A stretch of 64,000 bases of DNA from a virus: IMG/VR virus record IMGVR_UViG_3300023174_000002, positions 35,209-99,208 of that record. One strand, given 5' to 3'. Both the position numbers and the translations under genes were made by a program. Within the stretch, counting starts at the first letter, position 1. Every line of letters starts with the position of its first letter. This document shows, one piece after another, positions 5,401 to 47,717 of the stretch. The notes under the pieces are model-generated. The model was given only the letters and a program-made list of their open reading frames with translations. It made no database searches and had not been told where the DNA came from.

Positions 5401-6373
5401 AATCAGCATATTGATCATCATCAATATTGGAAGCACCGTAGTAATCATCTGTAGAGATTACTAGATCAGAAAATTCTCTGAAAATACTCCAGACTCGTTT
5501 ACTGGTTTCCTGTACGGTTAAAATTTCAGTAAACAGTTTATAGGGAGTTATTGGTGTTTCTGTAGCAACTTGCAAATAGTCTTGTAAAAATCTTAGCAAA
5601 CTATAAGCATAATCAGCATCATTACTATAAGCAAAATCTGCTGATATTTCAGCACTAAATAACTTTGCTAAAATATCTGTTGTAGTAGTATTATCTGCTT
5701 GAATACTACTAACGCTGTTGCTTATTTCTAAATCTACTATACTAGTAGTTTCTACGCCACTAATATCTTTGATGTATTGTAAGGCTATATCAAGTAATTC
5801 AGTAATAGTAAGCGTATCATTATAATTTGCGCTAAGATTATACTCAATTCCTAAATCTGCAAAATTAATTACTTCTGCTAACTCTCTACCATACCCTATT
5901 TGTGTAGTTAGTGTATCTGTAGTAGTATAGAAATCTCTAAGACCTTTATTAGCAGTAAATATAATATATTCGCTGTTAAAAAATACTGGATCTGCAATAT
6001 CTCGCACATAGGCAACTAAACTACTAAAAGTATCTGTAATTTTATTAAAATCTTGAAATACTTTTTGTGGTTGTTTAGATATGGGATCTTTTACTTTTAA
6101 CTTGTCTAGTCCTCTAGCAAACTTACCTGGAGTTGCAGTAGTAGGTGTATCATCTTGTGTAGTAGTTAATCCTGGAACATTAACAGAAGTAGTAAGATCT
6201 GGAACAACAGGAGAACTTATAATACTAGGATTAGTAGTAGTTTGTGTTACTAAACTTGATTGACTGTTAGGCACAACGCCGGGCGCTACTACACCACTAG
6301 TTGCATCAGGAATTACTGTTTGAGTAGCAATAGGATTTGGTACAGTATTTGTAGTAGTAATTCCTCGTGGCAT
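2450..6373 (-). CDS. Giant repetitive fibre-operon protein with five TDDYYGAANIDDDQ repeats
   Basis: 1307 residues, with a Thr/Pro/Val-rich low-complexity N-terminus (about 1-85) followed by a long Asp/Asn/Ser/Leu-rich region. A motif of the form TDDYYGxANIDDDQYA occurs five times, ending near residues 320, 539, 754, 974 and 1206, so the super-repeat period is 215-232 residues. Between copies are degenerate units of about 40-60 residues (for example DYYSGVANFYRQVDE, DDFNRQVDYKRAISD). The acidic DxDxD-like cores could bind calcium, but this is inference. Ribosome site AAAGGA precedes ATG 6373. I do not recognise the family; a long rod-like virion protein is the best guess. Confidence 0.65.
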   Translation of the reverse strand: MPRGITTTNTVPNPIATQTVIPDATSGVVAPGVVPNSQSSLVTQTTTNPSIISSPVVPDLTTSVNVPGLTTTQDDTPTTATPGKFARGLDKLKVKDPISKQPQKVFQDFNKITDTFSSLVAYVRDIADPVFFNSEYIIFTANKGLRDFYTTTDTLTTQIGYGRELAEVINFADLGIEYNLSANYNDTLTITELLDIALQYIKDISGVETTSIVDLEISNSVSSIQADNTTTTDILAKLFSAEISADFAYSNDADYAYSLLRFLQDYLQVATETPITPYKLFTEILTVQETSKRVWSIFREFSDLVISTDDYYGASNIDDDQYADFNKGVVDLLNINELVDVLPYFAVYINPEDFYSGVDSTSILTNKILNSNINSANNELVELNIGKNVQELKTISELVNFTNNLEKLSPVVTLEDLITSLGRVLYSFARPADAPEITLQSLVLNAVSTTDILIPEMTFRRLLQSISLQNDSNYILDVAKYLVSPIYTQSQTSILKSTGFEDSVSNTDDFNRQVDYKRAISDFITTTDDYYGTANIDDDQYANFDKRINDDLLIQQRFQKYFTTVKQSAIYSTNTPLLELVNNYYELKKVSDLESAEYFKVSADSLSINNPIVIDISKIFEELLSISDPLISQSLFNRSFTDQIVNSSSNSILISIPEIDAVTQTSNFSRIVNYIRNIDENKTTSELFTSRSQLVKINQLSIQDAFDRRFIRQTGDSQLQHSETFRKVVSYVRNIQDLITTTDDYYGAANIDDDQIATVKKRLVDPVDINDLDLFILKNLYITETSAATTLNPISLNTTKPLSDLLQTSRFNYADVFKVLLDSATLSEIQYANVNTVVNDALAATDPYFSISGFNRVFVDRANITEYIDSIATSIIKSDAVTAQDYYSGVANFYRQVDELKTFTDQTVLYFSKYYRSEPLSIDDTNAKRVNKYPDNDLVTQTDESFTVTDFVRNFQDFIDATDDYYAQANIDDDQYADFIKSVADNVTIGEAVDVLPITFTIYSPQEALFANSDTNSMFISIYPNTETISKFEERIIDINKYIPTDTIYNYSQPKSFIRHVNDDDSITTSEDIVFTNVVYIDFLVEIIGSDDYEYSLETRKVQADTLVLAEYLIKEMYYRRIIPEILSINSGLERRYIQVNKDLDNTNNYVYLQNNDTQYLKPNKGLTDQNFVFEDFTTRLTSSFGLYDTVTATDDYYGAANIDDDQYATFNKTLSDTNTTTDTFKYTAFIQQLQAFTLSEENKFNVGKNVVETLHFMETFTYDKFAVTLFSDQILKSDSGTINNQNYFASTYVAPGYVGTNRTIGS

Positions 6374-9064: not shown

Positions 9065-12000
9065 TATGCATACCTCGCTACAGAAGCTATAATAGTATAA
9101 ACTCCGCCACTGTCTTTAAGTATTGTAAAAGTATAAACGTCTACGCTGCTTGCACCACCACTGCTGGGTACAATACCGCCTAGCCATTTTATAGAGCTAG
9201 CAGACTGTGCCACACTATCAATACTTAATGCAGCTTGATAGTATGCTGGAGTTCCATTTGATACTAAGTGAACAATAGATAAAGATCTATTATTCGTAGC
9301 TAATAAAGTAGAGACGCCTGTAATGTTTAGGGTCCAATTTGCTGTTGGATTTGCTGTAGTCCACATAATTGGTGCAATAATAGCATTTAGTGTACAATTA
9401 GTGCCATTAGGAGAAGTGGTATTAATAGCAATAATTTCTGTAGGTGCAACAAATAATGATTTATTAAAGGTTTGTAGAGCTGTCCAAGTATACGAAAAAC
9501 TAGGGTCTAAGGCGGTAGAACTTAATACTCCGCCAGTATAACTAAGTGGACCACCAAGTGCTACTGCAGTAAAACCACCAGCACCATTACCTGCAATAAT
9601 ATTACTGCCACTAGTAGGACCGGCAAAATCTGTACCAGCTACAGCTGTAGCAAAAGCAGTACCACTATATTTTACTATTCCTGTACCCCAGCTACTCTTA
9701 CCAGTACCGCCATTAGCTATATTTAATATACCAGTAACACCAGTACCGCCTAGTGGTAATCCTGTTGCATTAGTTAATGTAATAGATGTCGGTGTTCCAA
9801 GAGCAGGACTAACTAGTGTAGCATTACTTGATAAAACTACATTGCCTGTACCTGTAGAACCACTACTTGTGCCTGTACCGCCTTGAGTAGCTGGAAGCTG
9901 CCCAGTAGTCATAGTAGCTAAGTTTACTTTGCCCCATATTGGTGAAGTATTTGCCCCCTGCGTTAATAATACATTACCTGCAGCAGCTGCAGCTAATTTA
10001 CTTAATGCAATATTACTACTTGCATATAACATATCGCCAATTGTATATGCGCTTGTACCACCTTGACCAGTACCGCCTTGAGTAGCAGGTACTATATAAG
10101 TACTTACTAAACTACCGGCACTTCCTGTAGTACTTTGATTTAGTAATGGTACGTCTGCTGCCTGAATTCCTGACATAGTAATATTAGTACCATCTCCACG
10201 CGCATATGTGCCACTAGTAACTACATTATTAAATAACCCATTAATAGCGTTTTGTCTTGTAACCTGACCGGTACCCCCTAAACCAATACCTACAGTACTA
10301 GTTACACTACCAGCACTACCTGTGACGTTTGCACTCAGTGTAAGGCCAGTAAGCATAGCACTAGTAATTGCCGACATAACAGCATTACCTTGAGCATTAA
10401 TTTGTAATACAGTTCCAGCAGTAAGAATATTATTAGTTAACTCATTAATTGCTTTTTGTCTATCACTTTGGCCTGTGCCACCATTAGCAATTGCAACTAT
10501 ACCACTAATACTTCCTGCAGTATTTGCAGTATTTGCAGTAGTTGCATTACCAATAATATTAGCAGTAATAGTAAGACCGTTTAAATCACTAGCTGCAATA
10601 TTAGACATAACTATATTAGCGCCGTCACCTCGTAAATATCTACCTATTGAAGTATTACCAGCTAGGGCATTAATAGCGGCTTGTCTAGTAGTTTGTCCAG
10701 TTCCACCTTGAGTAATTTGTACTGTTTGCAGCACAGTATTAGCCTGTTCTGCAAAAGCTACATTAGCAGTGCCTGAAATAGTACTAACATTACCGGGGCG
10801 CCAAACATTAGCAGCAGCATTGTAGATTAAAATTTGGCCTGTGGTAGCACCAGCAGTATTAGCATCTGTTAAATTACTAAGTTTTGTAGGAACATTGGGT
10901 TTATTAAGTATAACTGCTAAACCTGTAGTAGCGTTCCAGTCACTATTAACTTGTGCTGTTGGAATATTGGGTTTATCTGCTAAATCTGCGTAACTACCAG
11001 TAATTGCCACATTGGCTAAAAGTGGTTTACCTAGTAAATCTGTATAACTACCACTAATTGCAACGTTTGAAAAATAACCTGCAGTATTATAATTAACACT
11101 AGTAATAAGTTTAGCCCAAGGACTCCAACTATTACTTACATCCCTGCGGCTACGTATATAGCCGTCTGCACTTACAGCAACGTTTGCTCCAGTACCTCCA
11201 GTACTAGGCCAAGCAAGGTAAATTTGTCCGTCACCTTCACCACCTAGGGTAAGCATATTTCCAAAAGCAGTTGGATAGTTATTATTGTTGTAGTTACTTC
11301 TTAAACTTAGAATATTTGACGGTTGCGCTGTTCCATTAGCTTCAGCATTAGATCTGCCTAAATTACCAGTACCAGTAACATAACCGCCTATTAAATTAGG
11401 CATAGGCACATCTACCCAGTCAACATCTGTTTCGCCAGCATTAACTCGTAAAAACTTTGTGCCTTTAGTAACATAATTAGGTAACAGATTAATTCTAGCA
11501 TTTGATGCTGTATTAGCACCAGTACCACCATTTGCTACATTTACAATGCCTGTTAGTGCAATGTTTACCTGACTGCTAGTACCACCACTTACTAAATTTT
11601 TTTGTGCAGTAAGTGGTGCAGACGTATTAATTGTAGTTATTACATTTTTAGCATCTATTGGAGCTTCCCAGTAAGAATCAGTTCCAGTATTATCTAAAGT
11701 TAATACCCATCCTGCCATTCCTGCACCAAGTGCAAGTGGCATAATATTTCGTCTAGCATTATCTCTAGTATTAGCATTTGTGCCACCATTAGCTATATTT
11801 AGTATACCAGTAGTTCCAGTATTTAAAGGTAGTCCGGTTGCATTAGTTAATATTGCAAAACTAGGTACTCCAATATTAGGTGTAGTATACCTAGGTATAT
11901 TGCTAGCAGTATTACTACTAGCATTATTAGAAGTATTAGGAACAGAAATAGATGGTGGCGCAGTTAAAACTGGATTAGCAATAATTAAATCATAAAGGAT

Positions 12001-34495: not shown

Positions 34496-35785
34496 CTAGA
34501 TAGTGTAGGTATAGAGTGCATAGCGAAGTGCATCAGCCATGTGAGAGTATTCATCATGCACAGGACGTTCACGTTGCAGTCCTTCGCGACTATCCCAACG
34601 ATATTGATCCATTACATTGAGTACATTTGTACAGTGCGGAGCAATTTTTAATCGGTTAGTTTCTACTAAGGTTTGTACATAGGCAATACCAGGTAGTACG
34701 TCTTTTTTAGCTTTAGTGGTGGAGATATTATAAGTATAGGCAAGGTCACTAGCAAACTGTGCAGCTGCACTGTCAATAAATACTACCTCTACACCCCAGC
34801 GTTCATTTAGTTCACGAAAGTGTTCTGCGTGTTTGTCTGTGGTTTGTTCACTTTTTAAATATTCATCAACCACATGAAACTGGTCACTAACAGGATTATA
34901 ACTAATAACCACGAAAGCAGTAGCATCACGATAGCCGGGATCGCAGCCAGCAATATATTCGCATCCTTCTTGGTGAACATACTCACTAACTCCTACTTCA
35001 CGACTAAAATTATATACCTGACCCTCAAACACATTAAAGCTAGCCAAGTATTCTTGTTCAAACTCAGCTTTTGACATGGACTTGCGTGCTTCTGCTACAT
35101 CCGACTCCGACATGCGGGCGTTTTCAGTATAGTCTGCTTGGATACTACACCACTCAGGATAGTCATTGCTATATCCACGTTGATAAAACTTTGAAAACCA
35201 ATTTTGTTGACCGCGGGGTGTGGAGATGAAAATAGCCTTTGAATTAGGTCGGTCTAGTGTAGGACGCAATTGCACGTTAAATGCCGATTCACCGTCATCG
35301 CCTAGTGCAGCTTCGTCGAATAGAATAATTTGATAACTACGTCCAACTGTGCTGTCCACTGTGCTTAACGAACCCATCCTAATGGTTGAACCATTTGACA
35401 ACTCTACAACTTTGTCCTTTAGGTTATCACGCTCTACTTCTAGGTCAAAGTGCCTGATAAACTTACGCTGCAGTTCAAATGAAATCGAACTCAAGTTATA
35501 GTTAGGCGATATAATCAGCACATTGCAACCTGGAACTAGTGATACCAGCTGTGCAATAATATTAGCAATATAAGTTTTGCCTAAACGTCTAGCTAATGCG
35601 GCACAAACAAACCTGTACTTAGGATTGTTAATGGCATTAATAAGTGCAATCTGTGGACGATTCATGGTGTCCCAGGCACCTAACAACTTTAAGTAGTTTT
35701 CAATCGGCAGTTTAATAAATCTGGTTTCTACAGCAAACTCAGTAATTTCATCGCGGTCTACATCGTCTCGGCTAACTTTAAGCAC
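34496..35785 (-). CDS. terL: Terminase large subunit
   Basis: 429 residues from GTG 35785 (GGGGA six bases before it). ATPase: Walker A-like ARRLGKTY near residue 65-71 and Walker B ILFDEAAL near 150. Nuclease: CDPGYRDATAFVV near 260-275 and VVFIDSAAAQFASDL with acidic metal ligands. The start overlaps the end of the upstream membrane protein gene. It pumps and cuts DNA at the portal. Confidence 0.95.
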   Translation of the reverse strand: MLKVSRDDVDRDEITEFAVETRFIKLPIENYLKLLGAWDTMNRPQIALINAINNPKYRFVCAALARRLGKTYIANIIAQLVSLVPGCNVLIISPNYNLSSISFELQRKFIRHFDLEVERDNLKDKVVELSNGSTIRMGSLSTVDSTVGRSYQIILFDEAALGDDGESAFNVQLRPTLDRPNSKAIFISTPRGQQNWFSKFYQRGYSNDYPEWCSIQADYTENARMSESDVAEARKSMSKAEFEQEYLASFNVFEGQVYNFSREVGVSEYVHQEGCEYIAGCDPGYRDATAFVVISYNPVSDQFHVVDEYLKSEQTTDKHAEHFRELNERWGVEVVFIDSAAAQFASDLAYTYNISTTKAKKDVLPGIAYVQTLVETNRLKIAPHCTNVLNVMDQYRWDSREGLQRERPVHDEYSHMADALRYALYTYTI

Positions 35786-39603: not shown

Positions 39604-39743
39604 CATGGACAGAGCAATTACGAAAGGGGAAGCCTACTGACCTTAACTGTGCTTGTTAGCAGTTAATTTAGCAAGCGTCGCAACGCAGGGTTATACGATA
39701 ACTAATCCTGCACGTTAACCTTTATTTACTTTTGGAGAATCGC
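39604..39743 (+). other. Structured leader of the first HTH gene
   Basis: About 140 nt between the predicted start site and the HTH gene. It holds a mini-ORF (39605-39640) and a hairpin around GTTAT-ACG-ATAAC with GCAGG / CCTGC outside. It may be an autoregulatory leader; no known riboswitch is recognised. Confidence 0.4.
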
Positions 39744-40070
39744 ATGGCTGAGAAAGCAATTAACTATACCCCTGAGCAAACTGCCGCGCTTGTTGCTGAC
39801 TATCGCGATGGTATCAGCGTTGAGCAATTGGCAATGCAATTGGGTAAATCGGTACGCTCGATTGTTGCAAAGTTGTCTCGTGAAGGCGTGTATCAGAAAA
39901 AAGAATACAAAACCAAAACGGGTGAAGCCGTGGTTAAAAAGGATTCTGTTGCTGATGCAATTGGCGCAATCTTGCGCTTGCCTGAGAATGACATTGAATC
40001 GCTCACTAAGGCTAATAAGTCAGCATTAAAGGCAATCTTTGATGCATTGGCTAATTCCAAGCCGATTTAA
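39744..40070 (+). CDS. Helix-turn-helix DNA-binding protein, copy 1
   Basis: 108 residues from ATG 39744 (GGAG upstream). The N-terminal half, YTPEQTAALVADYRDGISVEQLAMQLGKSVRSIVAKLSREGVY, is a tri-helical HTH with recognition helix SVRSIVAKL. The C-terminal half (RLPENDIESLTKANKSALKAIFDAL) is a second small helical unit. Copies lie at 44313, 45434 and (minus strand) 46622. This is a small HTH type also seen in other phages, presumably a transcription regulator. Leucine is mostly TTG and never CTA here, unlike the rest of the window. Confidence 0.8.
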   Translation: MAEKAINYTPEQTAALVADYRDGISVEQLAMQLGKSVRSIVAKLSREGVYQKKEYKTKTGEAVVKKDSVADAIGAILRLPENDIESLTKANKSALKAIFDALANSKPI

Positions 40071-40071
40071 A

Positions 40072-40097
40072 TAAAGGGCGAAAGCCCTTTATTTAAT
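40072..40097. terminator. Terminator after HTH copy 1
   Basis: 8-bp stem TAAAGGGC / GCCCTTTA with a GAAA loop, flanked by T-rich sequence on the right and A/T-rich on the left, so it may work in both directions. On the minus strand it would end a ~65-nt RNA started by the promoter in the adjacent repeat. Confidence 0.7.
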
Positions 40098-40106
40098 TTA
40101 TAACGA

Positions 40107-40212
40107 CCAGGCTGTTGCAAAAAAACAACAGCGCTGGCGCCAAATTATAGCATATAATTTGGGCGCGTGTCAAGGGGGTGGGCGAAAATACAACACTAGG
40201 GAAAACCCCTAG
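40107..40212. repeat. Island intergenic repeat 1 (antisense promoter + stem-loop)
   Basis: From left: stem-loop CTGTTG / CAACAG (outer CCAG / CTGG), then a minus-strand promoter TTGACA (40168-40173), 18 bp, TATAAT (40144-40149) set in a GCGCC dyad, then GCGAAAATACAACA and a CTAGGG / CCCCTAG hairpin. A transcript from it would carry the stem-loop and end at the terminator 40072-40091. Confidence 0.75.
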
Positions 40213-40240
40213 TTGACCTGCTCGATTTTTGGTGTAGAAT
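40213..40240 (+). promoter_or_regulatory. Plus promoter of the SprT-like gene (leaderless type)
   Basis: TTGACC (40213-40218), 16 bp, TAGAAT (40235-40240). ATG 40248 follows after exactly 7 bases, so the mRNA would begin at or one base before the start codon. Confidence 0.65.
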
Positions 40241-40247
40241 TATGGTC

Positions 40248-40610
40248 ATGGATAAGTCACTAATTCTTCAGCGTGTAACGCAACGAGCCGACAAGGTATG
40301 GCACGACTTTACCTTGTTATATCCTCAATTGATTCGTTTTAATAAACCAACTATTGAATTAAATGGTCGGTTTACTAAAACAGCCGGTCGGTGCTGGATG
40401 GAAACCAATCATATTGAGATTGGGACTAAGTTTGTTATTGCCCATTATGATCAGATTATGGGCGAAACAATTCCGCATGAAATTGCACATCAGGTTGATT
40501 TTAACTTGAATGGCAAACCACGCGGTAATCGTTGGCATGGCCCAACATGGCAAAAGATTATGCAATCTTATGGATTGCCTCCCGAAACTTATCATAGCAT
40601 GGACGTTTGA
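40248..40610 (+). CDS. SprT-like zinc metalloprotease 1
   Basis: 120 residues from ATG 40248; an ATG two codons earlier lies too close to the -10 box. The zinc motif HEIAH (PHEIAHQVDF) is followed by a downstream His/Trp segment (RWHGPTWQKIMQSYG), as in SprT/Spartan domains. SprT-type proteins cut DNA-bound proteins; a phage copy might clear crosslinks or attack host DNA-binding proteins. The next gene starts directly after its stop. No Shine-Dalgarno is present, in line with a leaderless mRNA. Confidence 0.8.
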   Translation: MDKSLILQRVTQRADKVWHDFTLLYPQLIRFNKPTIELNGRFTKTAGRCWMETNHIEIGTKFVIAHYDQIMGETIPHEIAHQVDFNLNGKPRGNRWHGPTWQKIMQSYGLPPETYHSMDV

Positions 40611-40817
40611 ATGTTAGCATGGATTGGCACAATCAGCAGTATAATGGGATCGTTCCTTGTTGCTTTCGGCATAATGAATTGGGGTTATATTTGCTTTATT
40701 ACCGGAACCCTATCATGGTTAATTATTGCAATAGCACGCAAAGATAAAGCATTGGGCGTATTAAATGGCGCATTTTTAATTGCCAATATAATCGGAATTG
40801 TTCGTTATGTAATTTAA
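40611..40817 (+). CDS. Small membrane protein
   Basis: 68 residues, almost entirely hydrophobic, with three likely membrane helices (WIGTISSIMGSFLVAFGIM, YICFITGTLSWLIIAIA, GVLNGAFLIANIIGIVRYVI). It begins at the base after the SprT stop, so it is translated by coupling. Function unknown. Confidence 0.65.
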   Translation: MLAWIGTISSIMGSFLVAFGIMNWGYICFITGTLSWLIIAIARKDKALGVLNGAFLIANIIGIVRYVI

Positions 40818-40822
40818 TATGA

Positions 40823-40924
40823 CCAGGTGTTGTATTTTTACAACACGCTGGCGCCAAAATTATATCATAATTTTGCGGCCCGTGTCAAGGGGGTGTGCAA
40901 AAATACCACACTAGGGGAAACCCT
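40823..40924. repeat. Island intergenic repeat 2 (antisense promoter + stem-loop)
   Basis: CCAG-GTGTTGTA / TACAACAC-CTGG stem-loop (40823-40851), GGCGCC, minus promoter TTGACA (40883-40888), 18 bp, TATAAT (40859-40864) inside an AAAATTAT dyad, then GTGCAAAAATACCACA and a CTAGGGG / CCCT half hairpin. Same layout as repeat 1. Confidence 0.75.
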
Positions 40925-40939
40925 GCGACACCGTGTCGC
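40925..40939. promoter_or_regulatory. Palindrome, possible operator
   Basis: GCGACAC-C-GTGTCGC, a perfect 7+7 dyad with a one-base centre, 11 bases upstream of a -35 box. It is a candidate binding site for a dimeric regulator, possibly one of the island's HTH proteins (inference). Confidence 0.45.
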
Positions 40940-40950
40940 ACCTTGGGCGC

Positions 40951-40978
40951 TTGCACAATCCAAAAAACCCTGTATAAT
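40951..40978 (+). promoter_or_regulatory. Plus promoter with mini-ORF at start site
   Basis: TTGCAC (40951-40956), 16 bp, TATAAT (40973-40978). ATG 40986 follows after 7 bases and encodes only M-D-R-R-stop (40986-41000). The ribosome site GGAG of the next gene lies inside this mini-ORF. Confidence 0.75.
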
Positions 40979-41004
40979 ACTCTACATGGATCGGAGATAA
41001 AACG

Positions 41005-41175
41005 ATGGCAACTAAACTGCACTTAGCACTGGCAATGAAAAAAGCCAGTAAACCAGATAATCGGGCGCATAAGCCCCTATTTGTGAATAGCCCATTTAAG
41101 CCAAAGGTTATTCCAAATAAAAAGAAAACAAAATTGGCTAAACTTTTTAATGGTTGGGGATTTGGCGATGAATAA
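41005..41175 (+). CDS. Small basic protein
   Basis: 56 residues (MATKLHLALAMKKASKPDNR..., KPKVIPNKKKTKLAKLF), strongly basic. CGGAG 8 bases upstream of ATG 41005. It overlaps the next start (GATGAATAA). A nucleic-acid-binding role is possible from charge alone. No family recognised. Confidence 0.6.
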   Translation: MATKLHLALAMKKASKPDNRAHKPLFVNSPFKPKVIPNKKKTKLAKLFNGWGFGDE

Positions 41176-41365
41176 ATTTAATTTGATTGAACAGGCCGCA
41201 AGGTTTGAAACGTCGCAATTAACCCGCGACGAATTGATTTACTTTGTAGAATCTGTTAAAATGCACGAGATGATAGAATTGGATTATGAGGGTTTAGTAA
41301 AACGCGTTGAACGTACTGCTAAACACTTGGTTGATGTTGCACGTTTTTTTAACAAAGGAGAATGA
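41168..41365 (+). CDS. Small helical protein of unknown function
   Basis: 65 residues from ATG 41168, overlapping the previous stop, with GGGGA upstream. Sequence is mostly helical (LIEQAARFETSQLTRDELIYFVESVKMHEMIEL). No domain recognised. Linked by overlap to the genes on both sides. Confidence 0.6.
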   Translation: MNKFNLIEQAARFETSQLTRDELIYFVESVKMHEMIELDYEGLVKRVERTAKHLVDVARFFNKGE

Positions 41366-41367
41366 TT

Positions 41368-41547
41368 ATGTTTATGGCTAAAAGCACTAATGACGAAACC
41401 ATTATGTCAATTGGTAATTCCATTGAGGAAGTCTGGCAAGACTTGCAATTTGGATTTGAATTGACCGATGATGATTTTGAGGATTTAGAGTGGTTTGAGA
41501 TTGAACCAATTACCGTAAAACGTAAATTGGAATTCGTTATTGAATAA
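41368..41547 (+). CDS. Small acidic protein of unknown function
   Basis: 59 residues from ATG 41368, 7 bases after AAAGGAG; an earlier ATG at 41362 is only 1-2 bases from that site. Acidic (SIEEVWQDLQFGFELTDDDFEDLEWFEIEP). The net negative charge fits DNA-mimic or inhibitor proteins, but this is speculative. Confidence 0.6.
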   Translation: MFMAKSTNDETIMSIGNSIEEVWQDLQFGFELTDDDFEDLEWFEIEPITVKRKLEFVIE

Positions 41548-41555
41548 ATAACGAG

Positions 41556-41621
41556 CCAGGGTGTTGTAAATTTACAACACCGCTGGCGCCAATTTTACCA
41601 GTAAAATTGGGCGCGTGTCAA
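41556..41621. repeat. Island intergenic repeat 3a
   Basis: Perfect palindrome GTGTTGTAAATTTACAACAC (41561-41580) inside CCAG / CTGG, then a minus promoter TTGACA (41616-41621), 18 bp, TAAAAT (41592-41597). Confidence 0.75.
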
Positions 41622-41640
41622 CAAAAATTTAAAATTTTTG

Positions 41641-41724
41641 TGTTGTATTTTTACAACGCTGACCGCGCCAAAATTATACACTAGCCTGGCCCGTGTGTCA
41701 ATAGGGGTTTGTCCCTATGTTGTA
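41641..41724. repeat. Island intergenic repeat 3b
   Basis: Stem-loop GTTGTA / TACAAC (41642-41657), minus promoter TTGACA (41696-41701), 17 bp, TATAAT (41673-41678), then an ATAGGG / CCCTAT hairpin (41701-41718). The second element in the same gap, giving two antisense promoters in tandem. Confidence 0.7.
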
Positions 41725-41736
41725 TTTTCGCAAAAC

Positions 41737-41765
41737 CTGGCACAACCCGATTTTTCGTGTATAAT
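41737..41765 (+). promoter_or_regulatory. Plus promoter of the HAD gene (leaderless type)
   Basis: CTGGCA (41737-41742), 17 bp, TATAAT (41760-41765). ATG 41773 lies after exactly 7 bases. Confidence 0.65.
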
Positions 41766-41772
41766 TCACTAC

Positions 41773-42276
41773 ATGGACACAACGCAGGCAAACAAGATGA
41801 TTAAACGGATCGCAATTTATGACATGGACGGCACTATCGTGGATTCCAGCCACCGTTACCGGACTATTTTAACCGATGCTGGTGAGCGCATTGATATTGG
41901 CTATTGGCGAGACAATCAGCATTTGGCAATGTTGGATGGCTTATTGCCATTGGCTAATAAATTTTGGGATGACTTGGACGATCCAGAATGTTATACTATC
42001 ATTGCGACTGCGCGGGTTATGAATGATCCAGATTGGGAATTTTTGAATACTAAATTGGGTATGCCAGATTATGTTATTTCGCGTACCCGCGATGATCAAC
42101 AATCAGGTTCCACGCTAAAGATTAACGGATTGATTAAATGCTTTGAGACTGTTAATATCAATTTAGATAATCTGCAAGATGTTGTTTTCTATGAGGACAA
42201 TGTAGATTATCTCAAAGCGGTATGCGATTACTTTGGTTTTCGCGGTGTTTATATTCCTAGCAAACAAGGACACTAA
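41773..42276 (+). CDS. HAD-family phosphatase
   Basis: 167 residues from ATG 41773; longer starts would run upstream through the promoter and repeat. HAD motif I is IYDMDGT (Asp17, Asp19), with TIIATARVM as motif II region and FYEDNVDYLKAV as the motif IV region. The size and spacing resemble phosphatase domains of phage RNA/DNA end-repair proteins, so 3'-phosphate removal is possible; other nucleotide phosphatases are equally possible. There is no ribosome site before the ATG. Confidence 0.8.
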   Translation: MDTTQANKMIKRIAIYDMDGTIVDSSHRYRTILTDAGERIDIGYWRDNQHLAMLDGLLPLANKFWDDLDDPECYTIIATARVMNDPDWEFLNTKLGMPDYVISRTRDDQQSGSTLKINGLIKCFETVNINLDNLQDVVFYEDNVDYLKAVCDYFGFRGVYIPSKQGH

Positions 42277-42277
42277 A

Positions 42278-42373
42278 ATGACTAACGGAAACGATCCAGA
42301 CAAAATTGTTTTTTATGCGCTGATTGCTAGCGTTTGTGCGGTTGCTTATCTTGTTTTTACCGGAGCGGTATAA
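42278..42373 (+). CDS. Single-pass membrane peptide
   Basis: 31 residues (MTNGNDPDKIVFYALIASVCAVAYLVFTGAV) with one membrane helix. AAGGA 7 bases upstream of ATG 42278, and its stop overlaps the next start (TAATG). Size and layout fit a small inner-membrane regulator; function unknown. Confidence 0.6.
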   Translation: MTNGNDPDKIVFYALIASVCAVAYLVFTGAV

Positions 42374-42744
42374 TGAAACCATGGAATGAATTAACCCAAT
42401 TGGAGCAGTTGAATTGCATTTATTGGGATGCTTATAAAGAAGCGCATGGTATTCGTCCACGTTGGATTGATACTAGCACTTGGACTGTGGAACAATTCGA
42501 GCGTGAAATTCAGGAATTGTCGGATATTGCCGATCGTGCTAATGCACAACGCAATGCTGATGAATTGGCGGAATTTGAGAATGTAAAAGCCCGCATTCAT
42601 CAATTGCAGGAAATTCACGGTTTCGATTGGAATCAGGCCGTGAATTGGATTGATCAGGAAATGGGTACTAATGGCGACATTAGTTTCCTAGAATTTGAAT
42701 TGGGTATTCCCTACGGTTCGCTTACACTGGAGAATGTGCAATGA
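42373..42744 (+). CDS. Hypothetical protein
   Basis: 123 residues from ATG 42373, overlapping the previous stop. Trp/Glu/Gln-rich, helical (WTVEQFEREIQELSDIADRANAQRNADELAEFENVKARIHQL). Four-base overlap with the next gene. Not recognised. Confidence 0.65.
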   Translation: MKPWNELTQLEQLNCIYWDAYKEAHGIRPRWIDTSTWTVEQFEREIQELSDIADRANAQRNADELAEFENVKARIHQLQEIHGFDWNQAVNWIDQEMGTNGDISFLEFELGIPYGSLTLENVQ

Positions 42745-42947
42745 GTTTTTTAAATTACGACATTCTGGATTGTTGTGGTGCTTATGGCCGCAAGGCCAAT
42801 TGGGACGATTGGGTTAATGGCCTAGACTTTAAAATTATTGATGGCCCTTATTTTAGCATTAAAGACTGCAATAAGTTAAGCCAGGAATATGACGAATTGC
42901 ATTTTCGTTCTGCAATGGGAATTGAATTCCGGGTGTATTTAAAATAA
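42741..42947 (+). CDS. Hypothetical protein
   Basis: 68 residues (MSFLNYDILDCCGAYGRKANWDDWVNG...). GGAG precedes ATG 42741. The CCGAYGRKA segment is phage-like but not assigned to a family I can name. Ends just before repeat 4a. Confidence 0.6.
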   Translation: MSFLNYDILDCCGAYGRKANWDDWVNGLDFKIIDGPYFSIKDCNKLSQEYDELHFRSAMGIEFRVYLK

Positions 42948-42955
42948 ATAACGAA

Positions 42956-43018
42956 ATGTGTTGTAAAAATACAACACATGGCGCCAAAATTATACCATAA
43001 TTTTGCGGCGCGTGTCAA
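42956..43018. repeat. Island intergenic repeat 4a
   Basis: Stem-loop ATGTGTTGTA / TACAACACAT (42956-42979), GGCGCC, minus promoter TTGACA (43013-43018), 18 bp, TATAAT (42989-42994) in an AAAATTAT dyad. Confidence 0.75.
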
Positions 43019-43041
43019 GAAAAATTTCGTAAATTTTTCGT

Positions 43042-43136
43042 GCTGTTGTATTTTTACAACAGCTGACGCGCCAAAATTTTACCACCAAAAAATTTTTTTG
43101 TCAATAGGGGAAAACCCCTATGTTGTATTTTTGCAC
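43042..43136. repeat. Island intergenic repeat 4b
   Basis: Stem-loop GCTGTTGTA / TACAACAGC (43042-43063), minus promoter TTGACA (43099-43104), 17 bp, TAAAAT (43076-43081), then perfect ATAGGGG / CCCCTAT hairpin and TGTTGTATTTTTGCAC. Second of a tandem pair, as in repeat 3. Confidence 0.75.
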
Positions 43137-43139
43137 TTC

Positions 43140-43169
43140 CTGGCACTGGGCGAATTTTCGTGTTATTAT
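43140..43169 (+). promoter_or_regulatory. Probable plus promoter of the exonuclease gene
   Basis: CTGGCA (43140-43145), 18 bp, TATTAT (43164-43169). It shares CTGGCAC and TTTTCGTGT with the promoter at 41737. The start codon here is 40 bases downstream rather than 7. Confidence 0.5.
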
Positions 43170-43208
43170 CTTAACTCGGCGTCTTGCCGTGGCTCACCTT
43201 TACCTATC

Positions 43209-43910
43209 ATGGCCAAAAAGCAGTTTTTCGCAATTCTCGACACCGAAACCACCTGCAATGATACCGTTGCAGATTTTGCAATTGTTATTTGTGATCGTAA
43301 TGGTCGCATTTACAATAAATGCGCGGTATTGGTTCGCAATCATTTTGATGCAATGGATCTTTTTTATGACAAAACAAAACAAAACGGTGAAATGTGGTCG
43401 CGTGAATACGCAAGCAAAAAGCAAACCCAATATTTTGCAATGCTTGATTCAGGTTCGCGGCAATTGGCGTCTATTGCCTCAATCAATGCGTGGATTCAAA
43501 AAGCCATTGGCAAATACAATCCTACATTAACCGCTTACAATCTGGCTTTTGATAAATCAAAATGTGCCAATACCGGAATTGATTTGTCGGGTTTTGCTGA
43601 ATCGTTTTGCCTTTGGCAAGCGGCAATTGGCAATATTTGCAAAAAGCAATATCGTCAATTTGCATTAGACAATCATTTGTTTAATGCTCCGACTAAACAT
43701 GGCAATATGTCCATTAAAACTACTGCTGAATCTGTTTTTGCGTTTTTAAATGGCCAATTTGTTGAAGAGCCACATACTGCATTAGAAGATGCACAAGATT
43801 TTGAATTGCCAATTCTGGTCAATGTTTTAAAACGTCGCAATTGGCGTGACAATATCATTGCACACGATTGGAAAAAATTCCAAGTAAAAGATTTTTACAA
43901 GGCAATCTAA
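43209..43910 (+). CDS. DEDD (DnaQ-like) 3'-5' exonuclease
   Basis: 233 residues from ATG 43209 (MAKKQFFAILDTETT); longer starts would run through repeats 4a and 4b and are rejected. Exo I is LDTETT (Asp11, Glu13), Exo II lies near YNLAFDKSK, and Exo III is HTALEDAQDFELPI, giving a DEDDh set. The usual role is trimming DNA or RNA ends or proofreading. It is followed directly by the second SprT-like gene. No clear ribosome site is seen. Confidence 0.85.
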   Translation: MAKKQFFAILDTETTCNDTVADFAIVICDRNGRIYNKCAVLVRNHFDAMDLFYDKTKQNGEMWSREYASKKQTQYFAMLDSGSRQLASIASINAWIQKAIGKYNPTLTAYNLAFDKSKCANTGIDLSGFAESFCLWQAAIGNICKKQYRQFALDNHLFNAPTKHGNMSIKTTAESVFAFLNGQFVEEPHTALEDAQDFELPILVNVLKRRNWRDNIIAHDWKKFQVKDFYKAI

Positions 43911-43911
43911 A

Positions 43912-44253
43912 ATGGAAAATTTAGCATATTACATTGAATTCTTGGGGCTGAAAAGCCCCGTAGAATTAACGCTTAAAACCAAGTCAAATAAACATTCTGA
44001 TGCTCTTTACTTGCCAAAGTTTAATAATCGCGGCCATTTAAAAGCGCATAAAATTACTGTATTCCTGGGCAATCAAACCCCTAATTCTCGGCGTTCATTG
44101 GATGAATTGATCGCGCACGAATTGATTCACGCTTGGCAACAAGAAAATAACATTGCTGAATTTCACGGACTTAATTTTGTGTTGCAGGCAATTAGACTAG
44201 ACGAAAAATTTGATTTGCCTAATATTTACCTTGCTGAATTAGACGACGAATAA
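43912..44253 (+). CDS. SprT-like zinc metalloprotease 2
   Basis: 113 residues. Zinc motif HELIH (LIAHELIHAWQQEN) with a downstream FHGLNF, matching SprT-type domains. It starts one base after the exonuclease stop, so both are co-translated. Distinct in sequence from the SprT-like protein at 40248. Two such proteases within 4 kb is unusual. Confidence 0.75.
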   Translation: MENLAYYIEFLGLKSPVELTLKTKSNKHSDALYLPKFNNRGHLKAHKITVFLGNQTPNSRRSLDELIAHELIHAWQQENNIAEFHGLNFVLQAIRLDEKFDLPNIYLAELDDE

Positions 44254-44260
44254 TCTACAC

Positions 44261-44289
44261 TTGATTTTTTTACCTCAACCCGCTATAAT
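44261..44289 (+). promoter_or_regulatory. Plus promoter of HTH copy 2
   Basis: TTGATT (44261-44266), 17 bp, TATAAT (44284-44289), then CTGGAG and ATG 44313. Confidence 0.75.
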
Positions 44290-44312
44290 ATTACTTTACT
44301 GGAGAAAACGCA

Positions 44313-44639
44313 ATGGCTGAAAAGACTGTGAACTATACCCCTGAGCAAACCCTGAACCTTATTGCCGATTACAAAAACGGTTTTACCGTTGAAGAATTGG
44401 CTTTGCAAATGGGCAAATCGGTTCGCTCAATTGTCGCTAAACTTTCCCGTGAGGGTGTTTACGAAAAGAAAACCTATAAAACCAAAACTGGCGAAAAGGT
44501 TGTTAAAAAAGACGCGCACGCTGATGCAATTGGTGCAATCCTGCGATTGCCGGAAAATGACATTGAATCCCTGACCAAAGCCAATAAATCGGCATTGAAA
44601 GCAATTTTCGACGCATTGGCTAATTCAAAACCCATTTAA
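44313..44639 (+). CDS. Helix-turn-helix DNA-binding protein, copy 2
   Basis: 108 residues, nearly the same protein as the 39744 copy: identical over KSVRSIVAKLSREGVY and over the last 32 residues (RLPENDIESLTK...), with changes in the first helix and linker. Many codons differ although the protein matches, so the copies are not a very recent duplication. CTGGAG precedes ATG 44313. Likely regulator of the same or overlapping operators. Confidence 0.8.
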   Translation: MAEKTVNYTPEQTLNLIADYKNGFTVEELALQMGKSVRSIVAKLSREGVYEKKTYKTKTGEKVVKKDAHADAIGAILRLPENDIESLTKANKSALKAIFDALANSKPI

Positions 44640-44652
44640 TTGGGCGTTTAAT

Positions 44653-44680
44653 AAAACCGGCAATTGCCGGTTTTATTTTA
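44653..44680. terminator. Terminator after HTH copy 2
   Basis: An 11-bp perfect dyad centred on GGCAATTGCC, flanked by A4 and T4 and followed by TTTTATTTTA. It can work on both strands and would also end the short antisense RNA from repeat 5. Confidence 0.8.
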
Positions 44681-44687
44681 TGTAAAT

Positions 44688-44793
44688 CGTTTTAAAAACA
44701 ATAATAGTTATTGTTTTTAAAACGGCGCCCATTATACTAGTATAATGGGCAACGTGTCAAGGGGTTGTGCAAAAATACAACACTAGGGGAAAC
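44688..44793. repeat. Island intergenic repeat 5 (different stem, same design)
   Basis: The stem CGTTTTAAAAACAATAA / TTATTGTTTTTAAAACG (17 bp, 3-base loop) replaces the TGTTGTA stem of other copies but keeps full complementarity. Then GGCGCC, minus promoter TTGACA (44755-44760), 18 bp, TATAAT (44731-44736), and GTGCAAAAATACAACA with a TAGGGG / CCCTA hairpin. Confidence 0.75.
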
Positions 44794-44860
44794 CCTAATA
44801 GTCAAACCAAAAACGCACCCATTTACACCCATTTTTTCGTTATAAATTTTGGAACCATAT

Positions 44861-44935
44861 GGCGCCAAAATTGTATCACAATTTTGGGGCGCGTGTCAAG
44901 CGTTTTGCAAAAATACAACATAGGGACTTTCCCTA
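44861..44935. repeat. Island intergenic repeat 6 (partial)
   Basis: GGCGCC, minus promoter TTGACA (44894-44899), 18 bp, TACAAT (44870-44875), then GCAAAAATACAACA and a TAGGGA / TCCCTA hairpin. The leading stem-loop is missing. The wider gap 44681-45193 holds no convincing gene, only these repeats, tandem terminators, GC-rich hairpins and another antisense promoter (45125-45154). Confidence 0.65.
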
Positions 44936-45124: not shown

Positions 45125-45154
45125 ATTATACAGTGGTTGAGCTACCCTTGTCAA
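45125..45154 (-). promoter_or_regulatory. Antisense promoter without the repeat
   Basis: TTGACA (45149-45154), 18 bp, TATAAT (45125-45130) on the minus strand, same geometry as the repeat promoters. The RNA would start with a GC-rich hairpin region (45040-45120). Confidence 0.65.
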
Positions 45155-45252: not shown

Positions 45253-45378
45253 ATGACAGACTTTCAAAGTGATCAAGAAGAATGGTGGCTAGATTGGAAA
45301 GACGAACATTTCGATTATCCTCAGTATCCGCAAAGCACGCCAGACCCTAGTAATTTTGATCTTGATATTCCCTACTGA
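45253..45378 (+). CDS. Small acidic Trp-rich protein
   Basis: 41 residues, MTDFQSDQEEWWLDWKDEHF followed by DYPQYPQSTPDPSNFDLDIPY. About a quarter of the residues are Asp/Glu. It has its own promoter and GAGGG before the ATG. Its last codons overlap the next promoter. Size and acidity recall anti-restriction or polymerase-binding inhibitors, but no family is recognised. Confidence 0.55.
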   Translation: MTDFQSDQEEWWLDWKDEHFDYPQYPQSTPDPSNFDLDIPY

Positions 45379-45390
45379 ACCCTGTATAAT
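45362..45390 (+). promoter_or_regulatory. Plus promoter of HTH copy 3
   Basis: TTGATA (45362-45367), 17 bp, TATAAT (45385-45390). It overlaps the end of the acidic ORF. ACCCTGTATAAT is shared with promoters at 40973 and 45791. Confidence 0.7.
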
Positions 45391-45433
45391 AGAATCTTCA
45401 ACAGCGCAGAAACCGAAACACAAAGGACATATG

Positions 45434-45742
45434 ATGACTGACAAAACTGTAAATTACACCGCAGAACAAACCGCTCAAATTATCGGACTTTACACCACGG
45501 GTAACTCTGTGGAAATGATCGCCGAGCAGGTTGGCAAATCTGTGCGGTCGATTGTGGCAAAGCTCTCCCGTGAGGGAGTGTACATCCCCAAGACCGCGGC
45601 TAAGGGTCAGGGCCGGGTTACCAAGGCCGACCTGATCGGTCGCCTTGCCAACAAGTTTGCGATTGACGCTACCGAAATCGCTAGCCTTGAAAAAGCTGGT
45701 ATGGGTGCCCTAGAGCTCTTGGTATCCAAAGCCGGGGCATGA
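45434..45742 (+). CDS. Helix-turn-helix DNA-binding protein, copy 3
   Basis: 102 residues from ATG 45434 (AAAGGA 6 bases upstream). NYTAEQTAQIIGLYTTGNSVEMIAEQVGKSVRSIVAKLSREGVY keeps the recognition helix of the other copies exactly. The linker and C-terminal half differ (GRVTKADLIGRLANKFAIDATEIASLEKAG). The gene is clearly more GC-rich in third positions than copies 1 and 2, pointing to separate acquisition. It is the last gene before the candidate large RNA. Confidence 0.8.
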   Translation: MTDKTVNYTAEQTAQIIGLYTTGNSVEMIAEQVGKSVRSIVAKLSREGVYIPKTAAKGQGRVTKADLIGRLANKFAIDATEIASLEKAGMGALELLVSKAGA

Positions 45743-46489: not shown

Positions 46490-46518
46490 ATTATACAGTG
46501 CTAAATCTAATTTGTCAA
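46490..46518 (-). promoter_or_regulatory. Antisense promoter facing the candidate RNA
   Basis: Minus strand TTGACA (46513-46518), 17 bp, TATAAT (46490-46495), 45 bases past the RNA terminator and pointing into it. It could make an antisense RNA to the 3' part. Confidence 0.7.
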
Positions 46519-46621: not shown

Positions 46622-46942
46622 TTATTGAGGATTTGGGCAGTTTTGGTGACTTAAACGGGTTTCTATAACCTGAAGAATACCTTTATTCACCTTTTCCAGA
46701 CTTTCTAGAAGTTCTGGGTTCATATTTAAGAGCTTAGCAATGTTTTCTATGTGCTCTGACTTTTTAGTAGGTACTTCACCACGCTTGTTCAAGTAGGCTT
46801 TTTTCTGGTAGACACCTAAACTTGAGAGCTTAGCAATGATACTACGCTCCGGCACCTCCAGCTCCTGTGCAATTTTTTGGACGTGAACGCCGGTTTTGTA
46901 TTGCTCTATAAGACGGTCAGTAATTTCTTTAGTATATTTCAA
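46622..46942 (-). CDS. Helix-turn-helix DNA-binding protein, copy 4
   Basis: 106 residues from TTG 46942, chosen because AAGGAG lies six bases upstream and the length then matches the other copies. LKYTKEITDRLIEQYKTGVHVQKIAQELEVPERSIIAKLSSLGVYQKKAY is clearly related to the plus-strand copies (RSIIAKLS-GVY), as is the C-terminal LLNMNPELLESLEKVNKGILQVIE. It is the most diverged copy and is read in the opposite direction. Use of TTG start is unusual. Confidence 0.75.
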   Translation of the reverse strand: MKYTKEITDRLIEQYKTGVHVQKIAQELEVPERSIIAKLSSLGVYQKKAYLNKRGEVPTKKSEHIENIAKLLNMNPELLESLEKVNKGILQVIETRLSHQNCPNPQ

Positions 46943-46952
46943 GTTGGTCTCC

Positions 46953-47717
46953 TTAATTCCACGGTAAATCAACGACCCTATCAGCTAAGGGTTGCTGCAC
47001 TTGTTGTGGGTGAAAAATCTCTGAGTCTACTAGTGGTTTGGGCATCATATCCCAATTTTTAGGGTCTAGGATCATTAATTCGGTCCTAAGGCTGGGGTGA
47101 GCTACCCAAATCTGTGTAAGCATGGTGACTGCCAGCTTAGGCAGCCCAAAAAGCTCAGTGTCCTGAATGCCTGTTAGGGTCCACTTGCTGGTAGCCTTTT
47201 GCACACTACCAGCTTTGGCTCCGCTTTTGACTGTTAAACCCTGTTCTCTGATCTCCAGCAAACGCTCTGACCCTAAATCAGGGCACTGAGTAAACATTGC
47301 TTCCAGCAATTCCTGGTGTACCAGTTTAGTGTCTGGATTGAGCTGCCAAGCACTGTAAGGCACACTTTGATAGCGTTTGACCCCTGCTAGGATGACCGGA
47401 ACTAGTTGACTGCAATTAACACCAACGGGGCTACCCTGCAGTTTAACCAAACTGCCACGTTTTAGCTTAGTCACTACCCGCCACAAACCCATGTGCCAGG
47501 CTGTAGTAATATTCTGCTTGGCTGTTTCTTGCGGTAGTACTAAGCCCTGATCGTTGCGTATCAATTTCCAGCTACCATAGTGTGCTAGGATTTGTGGCAG
47601 CATCCAGCTGTTAAAATTTTGTAAGCCGTGTTTTTCTGCTAGGGCTTCTAGTGAGATGGCGTCTGCGTATTCTTCGAATGGAAATTCATCTATGTGCTGT
47701 TGTTTTAGTTTAAACAT
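46953..47717 (-). CDS. Hypothetical protein, 254 residues
   Basis: No recognised domain. N-terminal EYADAISLEALAEKHGLQNFNSW looks helical, followed by mixed alpha/beta sequence. It precedes HTH copy 4 by 10 bases and is preceded by a 250-nt leader with a giant hairpin, so it may be regulated at RNA level. The longest unknown gene of the leftward accessory block. Confidence 0.65.
   Translation of the reverse strand: MFKLKQQHIDEFPFEEYADAISLEALAEKHGLQNFNSWMLPQILAHYGSWKLIRNDQGLVLPQETAKQNITTAWHMGLWRVVTKLKRGSLVKLQGSPVGVNCSQLVPVILAGVKRYQSVPYSAWQLNPDTKLVHQELLEAMFTQCPDLGSERLLEIREQGLTVKSGAKAGSVQKATSKWTLTGIQDTELFGLPKLAVTMLTQIWVAHPSLRTELMILDPKNWDMMPKPLVDSEIFHPQQVQQPLADRVVDLPWN

Follow-up and report, generated by a model that had tools for sequence, protein, structure and literature searches.

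Antisense sigma70 promoters with a self-complementary -10 box between the small genes of a T5-like virus

What do strong promoters do when they face backwards between genes that are read in the other direction? The question is raised by a stretch of 64,000 nucleotides (positions 35,209 to 99,208 of the IMG/VR virus record IMGVR_UViG_3300023174_000002), which is referred to here as the window. From 40.1 to 44.9 kb of the window, the minus strand carries eight sigma70 promoters close to consensus, located between genes that run rightward. A typical copy is palindromic within its promoter, where the -10 box forms one arm and pairs with the spacer. The anatomy, orientation, covariation and distribution of these elements are established from the sequence.

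A promoter core that pairs with its own spacer

The TTGACA boxes of the eight promoters start at positions 40173, 40888, 41621, 41701, 43018, 43104, 44760 and 44899. A spacer of 17-18 separates them from a -10 box which reads TATAAT in five copies, TAAAAT in two and TACAAT in one. When both strands were scanned from 39.5 to 46.7 kb and scored out of 12, the minus strand gave seven matches of 12/12 and three of 11/12, and the plus strand one of 11/12. The original prediction had placed eight minus-strand promoters with these boxes and spacings at these sites, and all of them are present. It had also described a stem-loop after seven of the eight, which is borne out (the copy at 44899 has none), and a TAGGGG/CCCCTA hairpin upstream of most, which is found in six (copies 1, 2, 4, 6, 7 and 8); copies 3 and 5 carry AAAAATTT-type hairpins in its place. 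With its GTTGTATTTT tail, the TAGGGG hairpin resembles a terminator; it is found in both orientations and scores as one in either.

The palindrome is seen in copy 1, whose plus strand reads GGCGC-CAAATTATA-gca-TATAATTTG-GGCGCG-TGTCAA. Relatives were gathered from IMG/VR with patterns that fixed the -35, the -10 and GCGCC and left the palindrome free; stem-loop, orientation, clustering and host-protein sites were likewise not built into the search. The collected set comprises at least 235 distinct cores from at least 68 loci, all of them on metagenomic contigs and several from one record. Stem length is bimodal among the 235 cores collected, with a perfect stem of at least 8 that includes the -10 in 164 and none in the other 71. 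When spacers were swapped in from other loci, the mean stem fell from 8.4 to 5.7, and the maximum over 60 trials was 6.1. The weak counterpart in non-palindromic copies is an excess of inverted repeats (stem of at least 5) within the spacer, 19% against 6% in shuffles.

The two arms change jointly, as TATAAT/ATTATA, TAAAAT/ATTTTA and TACAAT/ATTGTA. In an ungapped alignment of 28 distinct cores, standard pairs fill 99.6% of the paired cells, and in 17 cells both sides have changed. The covariation score there is 0.246, compared with 0.066 for shuffled cores (0/500) and at most 0.07 for slid controls. Cores beside orthologous genes were compared in pairs: among 947 comparable pairs, which are not independent, 698 have switched register, 88 differ by compensation only, 59 contain an unpaired change and 102 are identical. 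The palindrome loops are mostly 2-5, and the centre shifts over 2.5 bp relative to the -10; promoter spacing is nevertheless 18 in 159 of the 164 palindromic cores.

Selected structure in the elements is thus strongly supported by the sequences. Because of the register switches, the compensation and the moving centre, the evidence speaks for a core that is kept by base pairing rather than as a fixed two-fold protein site. The original prediction had taken arms that stay complementary as a sign of selected structure, and in this it stands; the most strongly co-varying stem, which it had missed, is the promoter core, and since this lies upstream of the expected start it is outside the putative RNA. 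It is unusual for sigma70 promoters to have a -10 that co-varies with the spacer and to keep one antisense orientation throughout a virus group; the co-varying -10 points to nucleic-acid structure acting at the promoter.

Gene block, orientation and relatives

The array belongs to a T5-like freshwater virus, whose record of 99,208 bases has overlapping ends and a circular map. DNA polymerase (about 50% identical) and TerL (49% identical) resemble those of T5-like Vibrio phages, and the NAD ligase, SbcCD-like and D5-like proteins are consistent with this assignment. Nearly all genes of the array block are on the plus strand, their direction being set by Pfam and PHROG hits to SprT-like, second SprT-like, helix-turn-helix (HTH) and dmp-like phosphatase proteins. 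The SprT-like gene at 40242..40610 (+; PF10263, E 3e-14) fixes the sense direction. A HAD-phosphatase gene at 41774..42276 (+), between element pairs 3/4 and 5/6, matches T5 dmp, a pre-early marker (E 2e-9, 33% over 88 amino acids), and a conserved gene (phrog_20187) follows at 43212..43910 (+). The D5-like HTH DNA-binding protein at 39732..40070 (+) represents the commonest cassette gene in related arrays. Paralogues at 44313-44639 (+), 45356-45742 (+) and 46622-46972 (-) bring the number of such proteins in this single block to four. The layout, with the TerL side, then the plus-strand block, then minus-strand early genes, resembles that of T5. Because of this gene order and the dmp-like gene inside it, the array block is probably the pre-early (first-step-transfer) region of a T5-like phage.

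Orientation was examined with the window proteins, plus T5 dmp, as probes against the collected array loci. It is never mixed (0 of 59 loci with at least two elements). Homologues of the HTH family, which recurs in 61 of the 68 loci, lie opposite to the promoters in 61/61, those of SprT in 43/43 and those of the phrog_20187 gene in 52/53; T5 dmp has matches in 53 loci, in 52 of them opposite. TerL is on the same strand as the promoters in 50/50. Records of 80-105 kb have their elements gathered in one cluster. The cassettes between elements hold 1-4 small genes in an order that differs among phages, and only 17 of 187 cores overlap a sense open reading frame of more than 80 amino acids. Chance origin was considered and rejected: the same pattern applied to genome contigs gives single, scattered matches, unlike the viral arrays.

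A covariance model, the check that had been proposed with the original prediction, recovers seven of the eight copies in the window and clusters in 18 of 20 related records. With this model, no antisense palindromic promoters were found in the cultured T5-like phages examined (T5, BF23, SPC35 and Vibrio T5-like stretches). Among isolated phages, megablast with the region gave no match, and there was no full-length match to the core.

Candidate functions

The functions considered for the elements, as roadblock, brake or source of RNA, are predictions. The reading favoured here, tentatively and at somewhat less than an even chance, is that of an antisense roadblock or insulator with short antisense RNAs. 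Each element would be a punctuation module between small gene cassettes, probably in the pre-early block, and would load host sigma70 RNA polymerase in reverse, opposed to the gene ahead. Because a hairpin or a bound host protein would be met at about +5 to +60, the antisense polymerase may be paused or terminated early. Once stalled it would form a head-on roadblock that stops read-through between cassettes, and it could also help the next forward promoter as its divergent partner; the antisense RNAs would largely be by-products of short length. The self-complementary -10 may tune promoter opening through a hairpin or cruciform in supercoiled or single-stranded DNA, or alternatively may fold in the 3' end of the sense mRNA, and the repeats may also supply homology for cassette exchange. 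The suggestion of a transcription-interference device in the original prediction is plausible and comes near to this reading.

The orientation, self-complementarity, covariation, intergenic position and variable cassette order described above count in favour of the roadblock, as do further features of the collected set. Terminator-like hairpins lie within 160 nucleotides in 55 (antisense) and 59 (sense) of 232 elements and in none of the shuffled sequences. A downstream stem-loop scoring at least 8 follows 64% of the cores, against 10% further downstream and 1% in shuffled sequence. Its sequence is free, with dozens of unrelated stems that are usually alike within one genome. A forward promoter stands behind the element in 39%, against 17% on the other strand and 3% in shuffled sequence. 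Other observations weigh against the roadblock. About three quarters of the elements have no clear terminator within 160 nucleotides downstream, which would allow long antisense RNAs. The search pattern itself accounts for part of the conservation of TTGACA, TANAAT and GGCGC. A roadblock by itself does not require a palindromic -10, and three more distant T5-like records (L145, L183 and L137) contain similar promoter arrays without it; the -10 palindrome is therefore not essential to an array.

The closest known kind of element is the promoter-early stem-loops (PeSLs) of T4-like phages, promoter/stem-loop cassettes reportedly described by Arbiol et al. in 2010 and Comeau et al. in 2014, both cited in PMC4503421. 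A PeSL is a repeated intergenic cassette of a strong sigma70 promoter and a stem-loop in a block of small variable genes with shuffled gene order. In the arrays too, each copy has a strong sigma70-type early promoter, and the elements are intergenic among small variable genes. Shuffling of gene cassettes is attributed to PeSLs; in the arrays, cassette order varies from locus to locus. The PeSL stem-loop acts as a terminator; here a stem-loop follows 64% of cores, and a terminator-like site is present in about a quarter of elements. The PeSL promoter drives the downstream gene in sense, whereas the elements are antisense (43/43, 52/53, 52/53 and 61/61 for the four probes). They also differ in being T5-like rather than T4-like, as DNA polymerase and TerL (about 50% and 49%) indicate, in having the -10 in a co-varying palindrome and, in some relatives, in carrying host-protein sites.

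Mirror-symmetric bidirectional promoters, reported by Warman et al. in 2021, are said to carry a -10-like sequence on both strands. The elements share this likeness and differ in that the pairing extends over 8-12 bp with co-variation and the -35 is on one strand only.

A brake on DNA entry is a possible, if unlikely, alternative to the roadblock. The elements would then be places where proteins settle on the DNA that enters first, with a function like that of the T5 injection stop signal: host RNA polymerase on the consensus promoters, with ParB, Fur, Zur or LexA nearby, would obstruct and pause transfer. In its favour are the location of the block, which includes the dmp-like gene and is flanked by the TerL side and the early genes like the terminal repeat of T5, and the presence of sites for host proteins. 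The parS sequence (TGTTTCACGTGAAACA) has 34 matches in 655 kb of array loci, whereas 1.3 Mb of other viral loci yield 9. Thirty of the 34 are 25-130 nucleotides from an element's -35, just downstream of the element, and in 18 array loci parS is exact or has at most two mismatches at element-linked positions. No ParB_N domain, the mark of a phage-encoded partner, was found in 13 records; this and the position of parS therefore suggest that host ParB may be recruited to these sites in some relatives. Loci L152, L175, L162, L201, L085, L216 and others have exact or near-exact parS about 60-100 nucleotides downstream of antisense promoters. Seven array loci have Fur boxes and one has a Zur-like site; the latter is a repeat, GTGATGTTATAACATCAC, after antisense promoters at about 5080-5200 of L164.

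Cultured relatives also have host-protein sites in this part of the genome. Strong Fur, LexA and/or DnaA sites are present in the first-step-transfer regions of T5, BF23, SPC35 and Vibrio D258, and there are none in 48 kb of other T5 DNA. Those of T5 (L354) are at 6213, 9411, 9552, 9656 and 9691, of which the one at 9656 is a perfect Fur 19-mer within the injection stop signal; the others belong to L359 (BF23), L360 (SPC35) and L361 (Vibrio D258). According to PMC13250531, the stop signal itself consists of palindromes and DnaA boxes, which may adopt structures or be bound by host components. It thus shares with the elements the virus group, probably the block, and the company of palindromes and host-protein sites. 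Against a brake, the T5 signal lies at one end, the inner end of the terminal repeat, and T5 has no array of antisense palindromic promoters, whereas the elements are dispersed through the block. DnaA boxes are absent from the window and from the neighbourhood of elements in relatives. parS is absent from the window itself, and we know of no host site that fits the window's repeat TGTTGTA-N4-TACAACA. Two-step entry is only presumed for the window phage. If the block is, as is probable, the first-step-transfer region, it is one in which the stop mechanism and the pre-early switch of T5 are still unsolved; the arrays offer a precise set of sites, and the host-protein sites hint at which host factors to try first.

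Two further matches were sought and rejected. The consensus operators of FNR, CRP, LexA and ArgR gave no pattern in the downstream repeats. The T5 single-strand nick site (Pu^GCGC) is fitted by GGCGC of the elements, but the AGGG of three distinct T5 nick sequences is absent, as is the nick reading GCGCAGGG.

Less likely than a brake is a family of antisense small RNAs, in which the product of each promoter would be a short, structured RNA acting in trans or by pairing with the upstream mRNA at its 3' end. The promoters are strong, and their predicted antisense 5' ends are much more stably folded than shuffles (z -3.2 to -8.0 in the five tested). Terminators had been predicted at about 65-75 nucleotides in copies 1 and 5: within about 75 nucleotides the terminator is real for copies 1 and 7, and copy 5 has only a terminator-like score with a weak T-tract. 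Across the set, 55 of 232 elements have the terminator-like site in the antisense direction that was counted above, so that most lack a nearby antisense terminator. The co-varying core, moreover, precedes the start; across lineages the stem-loop is free in sequence and gives way to parS or Fur sites; and the Rfam 15 covariance models gave nothing near gathering score in 39-47 kb. The new class of phage small RNA that had been proposed is for these reasons not established.

A slightly smaller chance than that of the small RNAs is given to a dispersed checkpoint of DNA entry and take-over, in which the backward promoters of T5-like phages, with parS, Fur and Zur sites beside them, would draw host RNA polymerase and chromosome-binding proteins of the host onto the DNA that enters first, as roadblocks, and the -10 hairpin would be a switch that senses DNA state (supercoiled or single-stranded). 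If true, this would define a class of promoters in which base pairing, rather than the letters alone, conserves the -10.

It is improbable that the palindromic promoters are operators for a dimeric phage regulator, such as the D5-like HTH proteins of the same cassettes. The family is present in 61 of the 68 arrays, and the palindrome overlaps the -10 in the manner of a repressor site. The fixed half-site and spacing of a dimeric repressor operator are, in contrast, not found, as the arms co-vary, the loops (mostly 2-5) vary and the centre moves over 2.5 bp. Operators repeated throughout a phage genome (SPbeta SPBRE, P1 c1 operators, L5 stoperators) are similar in being dispersed, oriented intergenic sites at promoters, and differ in that one sequence is kept, whereas arms and spacing vary here.

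Equally improbable is a structure without present function, whereby quasi-palindrome correction would copy the -10 arm onto the spacer and recombination would spread the repeats. Frequent register switches beside nearly identical genes and the homogenised stem-loop families of single genomes agree with it; other strong promoters of the same genomes (class B, below) stay non-palindromic, and antisense orientation and intergenic position are almost invariant, which argues against it. A single-strand promoter or priming site, at which RNA polymerase would recognise a hairpin in single-stranded DNA and prime complementary-strand synthesis, is very improbable: the hairpin lies at the promoter and a few wobble cells favour the antisense strand (G-T/T-G 6, C-A 1), but these numbers are tiny, the -35 is outside the stem in most copies, and we know of no single-stranded stage in T5-like replication.

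The individual copies and neighbouring promoters

All eight elements are on the minus strand. Element 1 (40107..40173) has its -35 at 40168-40173 and its -10 at 40144-40149 with a spacer of 18, and scores highest with the covariance model (57.6 bits). Its palindromic core occupies 40141-40161, GGCGCC 40136-40141 and the stem-loop 40107-40137; a bidirectional terminator at 40070-40095 follows about 70 nucleotides downstream. Element 2 (40823..40888; promoter 40888-40859, TTGACA/18/TATAAT with TGn; stem-loop 40823-40851) and Element 5 (42956..43018; promoter 43018-42989, TTGACA/18/TATAAT; stem-loop 42956-42979) have the same palindrome, AAAATTAT/ATAATTTT, and both score 38.5 bits. Element 3 (41555..41621; promoter 41621-41592, TTGACA/18/TAAAAT; 30.1 bits) combines the palindrome CCAATTTTAC/GTAAAATTGG with a stem-loop at 41555-41587. 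In tandem behind it, Element 4 (41642..41718; promoter 41701-41673, TTGACA/17/TATAAT; stem-loop 41642-41657) is without a -10 palindrome; its TAGGGG hairpin (41701-41718) abuts the -35 and is terminator-like on the plus strand.

Element 6 (43042..43121; promoter 43104-43076, TTGACA/17/TAAAAT; 22.9 bits) stands in tandem behind Element 5, with a spacer palindrome AAAAAATTTTTT, a stem-loop at 43042-43063 and a TAGGGG hairpin at 43104-43121. Element 7 (44688..44800; promoter 44760-44731, TTGACA/18/TATAAT; 22.1 bits) has a perfect palindrome, CCCATTATAC-TA-GTATAATGGG, a 17-bp stem-loop at 44688-44724 and a TAGGG hairpin at 44781-44800. Element 8 (44858..44935; promoter 44899-44870, TTGACA/18/TACAAT; 36.1 bits), the copy without a downstream stem-loop, contains the palindrome CAAAATTGT/ACAATTTTG and a TAGGG hairpin at 44921-44935.

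In the more distant records, some copies of L145, L183 and L137 have an inverted repeat inside the spacer or one that takes in the -35 (ACAAGCGC-agc-GCGCTTGT); the polymerase identity is 49-51% in L145 and L183. Behind the last arrayed element of the window, a further antisense consensus promoter at 45125..45154 (-; TTGACA/18/TATAAT, then CCAGGCG) has no palindrome. The minus-strand consensus promoter at 46518 is likewise ordinary and non-palindromic. This promoter (46490-46518) and the class B copies of relatives (e.g. L152, L164 and L222) have a TTTAGGGTCAG motif upstream and a TTTGCACT spacer; with few copies in any genome, class B looks like a distinct kind of promoter that borders the array.

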